Translations under genes and position numbers: made by a program
Origin: Pseudomonadota bacterium
GTDB lineage: Bacteria > Pseudomonadota > Gammaproteobacteria > Steroidobacterales > JBCBZW01
Reading direction: 5' to 3'
Assembly: GCA_039815145.1 (NCBI GenBank)
Contig: JBCBZW010000034.1
Location: 1 to 45,006 of the forward strand
DNA length: 45,006 bases
Part shown: positions 41,008 to 43,190 of the stretch, piece by piece
How positions within the stretch are numbered: position 1 is the stretch's first letter
Layout of the letters: the number at the start of each line of letters is the position of its first letter
Notes under the pieces: generated by a model
Told to the model about the DNA's origin: nothing
Seen by the model: only the letters and a program-made list of their open reading frames with translations
Databases searched by the model: none

Positions 41008-41880
41008 CTAAGCGGCGGCGACCAGTTTGCCGAGCTTCTTGATCGCGGCGGCTTCGATCTGGCGGATGCGTTCCGCCGACACGCCGTAGCGATCGGCGAG
41101 CTGGTGCAGGGTCGCCTTGTTCTCGGTCAGCCAGCGCGACTGCACGATGTCCCGGCTGCGCTCGTCGAGCGCGTCCAGGCCCGCGGTGAGGCTGGCGTGG
41201 TTCGCCGCCTCCCAGTCGTCCGCCTCGAGGGCCACGGCGGGGTCCTCCTCGGCAGCCGGCAGGTAGGTCTGGGGCGAGTAGCCGCCGTCTTCGTCGTCCT
41301 CACCGGGCAGGGGATCGAAGGACTGGTCGCGGGCCGCGAGGCGCCGCTCCATCTCCGTCACCTCCGCCGGCGTCACGCCGAGGTCCTCGGCTACCGCCTT
41401 GGTCTCGTCGGCCGAGAGCCAACCCAGGTGTTTCTTGGCTTTTCGTAAATTGAAGAACAACTTACGCTGGGCCTTGGTGGTCGCCACCTTGACCACGCGC
41501 CAGTTGCGCAGCACGAACTCGTGGATCTCGGCGCGGATCCAGTGCACCGCGAAGGACACCAGGCGTACGCCCACCTCCGGGTCGAAGCGCTTCACGGCCT
41601 TCATGAGACCGACGTTGCCTTCCTGCACCAGATCGCCGAGCGGCAGGCCGTAGCCCATGTAGCCGCGAGCGATGTGCACGACGAAGCGAAGGTGCGCGAT
41701 CACCAGCGAACGTGCCGCTTCCACGTCGTTATCTTCGCGGAAACGAGCCGCCAGGCTGCGTTCCTCTTCCACCTCGAGCACGGGCACGGTCTGTACGGCG
41801 CTGATGTACGCGTCCAGGTTGCCGACGGGGCCGACGGCCAGCAGGTTGTGCTGATTGTTGATAGTCAGGGCAGTACTCAT
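41008..41880 (-). CDS. rpoH: RNA polymerase heat-shock sigma factor (sigma-32)
   Basis: 290 residues. Region 2 includes [38 protein letters not shown] (59-96) and [20 protein letters not shown]. The RpoH box, unique to sigma-32, is [10 protein letters not shown] (137-146). Region 4 is the C-terminal [30 protein letters not shown]. It directs RNA polymerase to heat-shock promoters and is controlled in E. coli by DnaK and FtsH. A strong SD (AAGGAGG, about 8 nt) precedes the ATG. It follows ftsX as in E. coli but with a 191-bp spacer that contains a perfect CIRCE operator, so HrcA repression is likely. Confidence 0.97.
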
Positions 41881-41922
41881 GAGATCGCCCTCCTTCCAAG
41901 CATGGATGTCATTACCTTAAAT

Positions 41923-41949
41923 TTAGCACTCAACCGTAGGGAGTGCTAA
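41923..41949. promoter_or_regulatory. CIRCE operator (HrcA binding site) upstream of rpoH
   Basis: TTAGCACTC (41923-41931), a 9-bp spacer, and GAGTGCTAA (41941-41949) match the CIRCE consensus TTAGCACTC-N9-GAGTGCTAA at all 18 positions. It ends 43 bp before the rpoH ATG. On the rpoH strand, TTAGCA could serve as -35 and TAAATT, 18 nt later, as -10, so bound HrcA would cover the promoter. The promoter placement is inference; the operator match is exact. Confidence 0.93.
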
Positions 41950-42071
41950 CACCAGCGGCGTTCCTGTGACGCATTACCGTGAATAACGGTGGGGTCAGTG
42001 CCGTCGAACGGTGACCTGGGGCGCAAACGGGGCACGCAAATACGCTTACGCCCTATTAGTGTACCGACCGG

Positions 42072-43190
42072 TCAATTTGGTTCCATCGATCGTAAAACGC
42101 GATCGGCAGCGATCCAGGCGCTCGTCGCCCCAAGAAATGCCGCGCCACCGATCACGGTCGCCACGGGGCCGACGCCGAGGCCAGACAGCGTGAACGACGT
42201 GCCATAAACCTCCGCCAGTCTCGCCACCGGGCCGCCGAGGGCTAGCAGGGCCAGGGCGACCAGCACGATCGCAAGCACGCCACCGCCGAAGCCGTACCAC
42301 AGGCCGCTGAACACGAAGGGTTGGCGCACGAACCCGTCGCTGGCCCCGATCAGACGCGAGATCACGATCTCCTCTCGTCGTGCGCTCACATCGCCGCGAA
42401 TCGCATTGGCGATGACGAGCAGGGCGGCGAAGCCGAGCAGCACGGTGGTGAGCAGGCTCGCCTGGCCAAGGAGGCTGAGCGTGGCCCGCAGGCGCCGCAG
42501 CCAGGCGAGGTCCTCGGTGACCGTATCCACCTGCCTCAGGCCTTGCAGCTCGCTCACCAGGGCCCGGACGGATGCATCGTCGTCGCGACCAGGCGCTGGC
42601 ACGACCACCAACGTGTGGGGGATGGGATTGGCCGGATCCCCGCGTTCGTCGGTGAGCGACTCCAGTAGCTCGTCCATGCCGCTGTTCTCGCGGAACCAGG
42701 TCAGGCCCTCGTTGGCAGGGATCGCCTCCACCGCACTGATGCGTGCATCGGCCCGGTAGCGGGTCGCCAGCTCCTGCAGCGTGGTCTCCGCCACGCCCGG
42801 CGTGAGGTAGGCGGAGATCTCCGCCCGGTAGCGCCAGGCCGAGGTGGCGCGCGTCGCGTTGTCGGTGAGGAGCTTCAGCGCCAAGGGCAGGGCAAGGGAG
42901 ACGCCGATCACCGCCACCGTGAGTATGGATGTCGTTGGCGTACGGGCTAATCGGCCGAGGGCGCCGATGAGCATCTGCGCCTGACGGAGTCCATAGGTGC
43001 GCAGGCGGGCAAGAGTGCCTTGTCCTTCGCCGTCGCGGCGTGGCACCCGTTTGGTCTCGCGCTGTGCGGTCTGCTCTGCCGCCACCTCGCGCTCGCGTCG
43101 GGCGCGGCGGCGACGGCGCTCCGCTGCGGCCTGGCGGTCCGGGCCTGGATCGGCACCGGCGTTGCGCGAGCCGTCACGACGGATCGGCAT
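42072..43190 (-). CDS. ftsX: Cell division ABC permease-like protein FtsX
   Basis: 372 residues. A long, arginine-rich cytoplasmic N-tail (about 1-60), one membrane helix (about 88-112), a periplasmic domain (about 113-250) with YRAEISAYLTPGVAE, then three helices (about 255-280, 310-335, 345-365) with the FtsX coupling segment VSARREEIVISRLIGASDGFV. With FtsE it activates septal peptidoglycan hydrolases through EnvC-type partners. The start overlaps the ftsE 3' end by 17 bp. The N-tail is longer and more basic than in many homologues. Confidence 0.94.
   Translation of the reverse strand: MPIRRDGSRNAGADPGPDRQAAAERRRRRARREREVAAEQTAQRETKRVPRRDGEGQGTLARLRTYGLRQAQMLIGALGRLARTPTTSILTVAVIGVSLALPLALKLLTDNATRATSAWRYRAEISAYLTPGVAETTLQELATRYRADARISAVEAIPANEGLTWFRENSGMDELLESLTDERGDPANPIPHTLVVVPAPGRDDDASVRALVSELQGLRQVDTVTEDLAWLRRLRATLSLLGQASLLTTVLLGFAALLVIANAIRGDVSARREEIVISRLIGASDGFVRQPFVFSGLWYGFGGGVLAIVLVALALLALGGPVARLAEVYGTSFTLSGLGVGPVATVIGGAAFLGATSAWIAADRVLRSMEPN

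Follow-up and report, generated by a model that had tools for sequence, protein, structure and literature searches.

A predicted HrcA operator over the core promoter of the heat-shock sigma factor gene rpoH in a member of the Steroidobacterales and in hrcA-bearing relatives

The 45,006-nucleotide stretch analyzed here, called the window in what follows (positions 1 to 45,006 of contig JBCBZW010000034.1, assembly GCA_039815145.1), comes from a gammaproteobacterium of the order Steroidobacterales and encodes, on its minus strand, the heat-shock sigma factor sigma-32 (RpoH). The gene is preceded by a perfect copy of the controlling inverted repeat of chaperone expression (CIRCE), an observation that is confirmed here. 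The genome also encodes the repressor HrcA, repeat and repressor gene co-occur across the class, and the repeat overlaps promoter-like elements. Judged from the sequence, an HrcA operator very probably overlies the rpoH core promoter, and HrcA would control rpoH together with groESL. The two features at the center of the analysis are the following:

41923-41949, minus strand: CIRCE operator with perfect consensus (0 mismatches), predicted HrcA binding site, conserved in relatives.
41008-41880, minus strand: rpoH, heat-shock sigma-32 of 290 residues with the motif QRKLFFNLR (TIGR02392 equivalog).

The repeat reads TTAGCACTC-N9-GAGTGCTAA and has no mismatch to the CIRCE consensus. The window holds no other match at up to three mismatches, and dinucleotide shuffles of it contain 0.01 matches on average, a match being present in one of 100 shuffles. 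The gap to the rpoH ATG is 42 bases, placing the site close to the start of a heat-shock gene whose product is assigned by the TIGR02392 equivalog model (397.5 bits versus a cut-off of 323.1). A preliminary description of this DNA, made from the letters alone, had reported a perfect CIRCE at 41923-41949, just upstream of the sigma-32 gene, and both statements are borne out. Its interpretation, that rpoH would be under HrcA, is supported by the evidence below.

Regarding the HrcA system of this genome, the whole assembly (6.0 Mb, 295 contigs) was searched for CIRCE at up to three mismatches, with the reversed pattern as a control. The hrcA gene is present as a single copy (TIGR00331 equivalog, 318 bits) at the head of an hrcA-grpE-dnaK-dnaJ cluster. 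Two CIRCE sites are reported, one at rpoH and one at groES-groEL, the latter with two mismatches and separated by 43 bases from the first ATG of the groES frame, as compared with one for the reversed pattern. Since only rpoH and groESL carry the repeat, the visible HrcA regulon is composed of groESL and rpoH, with the better match at rpoH. The preliminary description had looked to hrcA and to further sites at groESL and grpE-dnaK for corroboration: the gene and the groESL site are there, while the grpE-dnaK operon is devoid of a site. A feedback loop through sigma-32 promoters was also considered, and the candidates upstream of hrcA and of groES are unsupported, 46% and 14% of shuffles, respectively, being as good.

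The repeat is conserved at rpoH in relatives. In the best 80 rpoH loci listed, which are the nearest only and whose titles name Woeseiaceae, Steroidobacter, Thioalkalivibrio, and other Gammaproteobacteria, CIRCE is found upstream of rpoH at up to three mismatches in every case (56 perfect, 17 with one, six with two, and one with three mismatches), and the 478 kb of these loci outside the upstream region contain none at up to four mismatches. Thirty genomes, made up of the window's own, one from its genus, and otherwise members of its order, were also compared, and 28 of them have the repeat with no more than one mismatch. The lack of conservation that the preliminary description had held to be fatal to its proposal is thus not what the relatives display. 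The two order-level genomes without CIRCE before rpoH (G163 and G150) both belong to one family. Window-like rpoH loci also occur in metagenome bins labelled Klebsiella pneumoniae, Janthinobacterium lividum, and Rhodospirillales, labels that may be wrong.

The survey was extended to the class with one genome for each of 140 families, the window's genome included. The rpoH gene was found in 130 of these genomes (E ≤1e-60), CIRCE at up to two mismatches anywhere in 107 of 140, and an HrcA match in 105 of 140. The rpoH upstream stretch (about 600 bases) was analyzed in 129 of the 130; the genome left out (G113) has no CIRCE at up to two mismatches anywhere and is missing from the list of HrcA matches. 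Of the 98 hrcA-bearing genomes, 90 have CIRCE at up to three mismatches before rpoH, versus five of the 31 genomes without hrcA (odds ratio 58, Fisher p 2e-15, families taken as independent), and the sites of the 90 comprise 47 perfect ones, 31 with one, seven with two, and five with three mismatches. Therefore, the link between CIRCE and rpoH is the rule and not an oddity among hrcA-bearing relatives. The preliminary description had seen here the joining of two usually separate circuits; the link itself stands, but not its unusualness, as most of the sampled families with hrcA possess it. In another class of the same phylum, CIRCE is found at rpoH in one of 20 families (best rpoH copy of each, irrespective of HrcA), this sole site (G294) having one mismatch and lying 69 bases before the rpoH match. 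Within the family sample, one genome (G030) possesses two rpoH genes, one with and one without CIRCE, which offers a natural comparison of a gated and a free copy, and another (G008), without RpoE above the cut-off, contains a further CIRCE-like repeat with one mismatch immediately in front of the perfect CIRCE at rpoH, giving this gene two operators in tandem.

The surroundings of the repeat point to an overlap with promoters. The sigma-E consensus is GGAACTT-N15/16-TCNNA, also read as TCTNA, and that of extended -10 sigma-70 promoters is TGN-TANNNT. When the family sample is anchored on CIRCE at rpoH (95 sites, 90 from genomes with and five from genomes without HrcA), the sites exhibit a GGAACTT box at positions -16 to -10, a T-N-A at spacer positions 9-11, and an A-A-T after the right arm. 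The same pattern, stronger, is found in the 78 of the 80 nearest loci with enough upstream sequence, 74 of which contain GGAACT at up to one mismatch. Named relatives with the composite site include Thioalkalivibrio sp. XN8, whose CIRCE is perfect, and Steroidobacter agaridevorans SA29-B, whose CIRCE has one mismatch. The box and the TC of the left arm can be read as a sigma-E promoter, whose -10 would begin inside the left arm, and TGC-TAAAAT as an extended -10 sigma-70 promoter, with its first six bases in the right arm. Control sites were taken from the matches listed: among 33 at neither rpoH nor hrcA, 30 were fetched, of which all but L243 were assignable to groES (29 sites), and 10 of the 13 listed at hrcA were fetched. 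GGAACT at up to one mismatch, starting at -17 to -15, is present at 64 of 95 rpoH, none of 29 groES, and one of 10 hrcA sites; the A at position 11 at 71, four, and two of them, respectively; and the T at position 29, the last of the extended -10, at 84, three, and five. At rpoH, the box is found 10, 20, and 30 bases further upstream in only 0, 1, and 0 of the 95 sites, and the whole sigma-E module at up to one mismatch in 10 occurs in 44 of the 95 CIRCE-bearing stretches versus 1.05 in shuffles. This fusion of CIRCE with promoter-like elements at rpoH, unlike the arrangement at groESL, is possibly new, and the account of the preliminary description, correct as to the operator, had missed it. 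By eye and uncounted, many groES sites are preceded by a CTATTA or CTATCA -10-like element, a layout that differs from that of rpoH in these same genomes.

A sigma-E element would be expected to disappear from genomes that lack RpoE, which provides an independent test of the box. RpoE is above its curated cut-off in 99 of the 140 family genomes, and at CIRCE-bearing rpoH genes the GGAACT box is found in 64 of 83 genomes with RpoE versus none of 12 without (p 3e-7), one of these 12 (G112) having a sub-cut-off match. Several of the 19 exceptions with RpoE display a GGAACTT-like box at another distance (by eye, not counted). Where CIRCE is absent from rpoH, the sigma-E module (at up to one mismatch) is present in three of 26 genomes without hrcA (0.6 expected) and in two of nine with hrcA (0.05 expected); these cases are too few to say whether the module generally outlives CIRCE. 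In one genome without an HrcA match (G067), the module stands beside a broken CIRCE with the left arm TTGGCACTC and an altered right arm that is one base shorter, likely a relic operator.

In the window itself, the corresponding elements are the following:

41920-41928, minus strand: extended sigma-70 -10-like TGC-TAAATT in the rpoH direction, overlapping the right CIRCE arm, last T conserved (recognized by the consensus given above).
41944-41949, minus strand: weak -35-like TTAGCA, read from the sequence, four of six bases matching TTGACA, 18 bases before the -10 and inside the left CIRCE arm.
41958-41964, minus strand: GGAACGC, an eroded sigma-E -35 box by comparison with relatives (GGAACTT).
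41938-41942, minus strand: place of the sigma-E -10, reading TCCCT (relatives often TCTAA), probably weak or lost in the genus.
41888-41895, minus strand: Shine-Dalgarno-like AAGGAGGG before rpoH, read from the sequence.
42072-43190, minus strand: ftsX, upstream neighbor of rpoH on the same strand.

CIRCE and the extended -10-like element are both intact, the latter as TGCTAAATT, whose last T is conserved among relatives. RpoE is encoded in this genome (306 bits versus a cut-off of 236), and a sigma-E promoter in the window was rejected as a candidate: its position is kept and its sequence eroded, with three of 10 mismatches and 73% of shuffles as good. The sigma-E half being eroded here, the idea that HrcA gates this input rests on the relatives and not on this genome. 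Upstream of rpoH, the genes ftsX, ftsE, and ftsY lie on the same strand.

Several observations weigh against an HrcA operator over the rpoH promoter. Scanning the stretch before rpoH in the window with a simple sigma-70 consensus yields no promoter. The sigma-E half is eroded in the window and in the same-genus genome; within this genus, the -10 is lost and the site no better than chance. The hrcA-grpE-dnaK-dnaJ cluster is devoid of CIRCE (the best site in 14 kb has seven mismatches), leaving no visible sign that HrcA acts on the operon that encodes it; CIRCE at the hrcA-dnaK operon is frequent and not universal. Some near relatives exhibit a degraded right arm, such as GACTGCTAG, and in the class survey eight of the 98 hrcA-bearing genomes lack the repeat at rpoH, and five of the 31 without hrcA still possess it.

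Among the rival explanations, a chance inverted repeat is practically negligible, being contradicted by the shuffle rate, the assembly scan, and the conservation in relatives and across the class, and no point in its favor was found. The repeat might instead be conserved as a promoter (sigma-E -10, extended -10, and -35-like hexamer) and not as an HrcA site, since both arms overlap promoter-like elements and, in the 78 nearest loci, there is less variation in the left arm than in the right one. This explanation is nevertheless very improbable. The left-arm excess is not clear in the 95 family sites, where left-arm position 2 varies (A in 68%), and C6 of the left arm and G18-A19-G20 of the right arm, outside every proposed promoter element, are 89-97% constant. 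Moreover, the repeat tracks the presence of hrcA. It is also found at groES sites, which lack these promoter elements or seldom have them, and in genomes with no RpoE above the cut-off it persists at 12 rpoH sites, none of which contains GGAACT.

A more serious objection, although still an unlikely one, is that HrcA binds with a minor effect on rpoH and that, as is the case for E. coli, messenger RNA structure and chaperone-driven proteolysis mainly set the level of sigma-32. Transcript-level control of rpoH is secondary in E. coli, and the motif QRKLFFNLR, which we take to be the RpoH box, makes chaperone control of the protein likely here, by analogy with E. coli. Against this, the retention of the operator in nearly all hrcA-bearing families of the survey argues for selection on its effect, as does the better match at rpoH than at groESL (zero versus two mismatches). 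Control of rpoH by HrcA, jointly with groESL, is the preferred explanation.

Known systems resemble this arrangement in part. In Geobacter sulfurreducens, a perfect TTAGCACTC-N9-GAGTGCTAA is predicted at -51 of rpoH (Rodionov et al. 2004, PMC545781), so that CIRCE at rpoH as such has already been predicted, likewise in an hrcA-bearing genome. However, that organism is a deltaproteobacterium whose hrcA-grpE-dnaKJ cluster carries CIRCE, unlike that of the window's genome, and the available part of the account mentions no overlap between CIRCE and a promoter. In the open-access literature consulted, no description was found of CIRCE at rpoH in Gammaproteobacteria or of its overlap with sigma-E; an earlier study of beta-, gamma-, and epsilon-proteobacteria, Permina and Gelfand 2003, cited in PMC545781, may contain part of it. 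The class I CIRCE/HrcA system of the B. subtilis type shares the operator, the repressor family, and groESL in the predicted regulon. At groES in the families sampled, a -10-like element tends to precede CIRCE, whereas at rpoH such elements are contained in it. E. coli K-12, one of the control genomes, has no HrcA match, and the 617 bases before its rpoH contain no CIRCE (the best site has seven mismatches), in agreement with the preliminary description, which had stated that E. coli rpoH is not under HrcA. The E. coli rpoH promoter P3, an RpoE promoter according to PMC8103513, reads TGAACTT-N16-TCTGA, one of 10 mismatches to the sigma-E module, and lies 121 bases before the start.

The mechanism suggested by this layout would operate as follows. 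In the absence of stress, GroEL would keep HrcA active, and HrcA would bind the repeat, hide the -10 region, and hold down both rpoH and groESL. When misfolded proteins occupy GroEL, HrcA would be released, rpoH and groESL would be transcribed, and sigma-32 would then raise the remaining heat-shock genes. A precedent is Helicobacter pylori, in which elements of the core promoter are covered by HrcA, whose binding is enhanced by GroE (PMC6032397). Most of the RpoE-bearing relatives sampled also carry a predicted sigma-E promoter in these ~45 bases; as its -10 would start in the left CIRCE arm, HrcA would be expected to gate the envelope-stress input to rpoH as well as the housekeeping one. A broader proposal, held with slightly less than even confidence, is that rpoH of hrcA-bearing Gammaproteobacteria is placed on one composite element made up of an HrcA operator, a sigma-E promoter, and an extended -10 sigma-70 promoter, on which HrcA would gate both sigma factors until GroEL is overloaded, and that P3 of E. 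coli, together with its neighbor P4, would be a remnant left after the loss of hrcA.

Textbook heat shock presents HrcA/CIRCE repression and sigma-32 activation as separate circuits. The present survey suggests a serial arrangement of the two at the promoter of rpoH in most hrcA-bearing families of the class (90 of the 98 sampled), the envelope-stress sigma factor often entering at the same 45 bases, so that three stress inputs may converge on one promoter. If this is true, E. coli would be the derived case and not the typical one.
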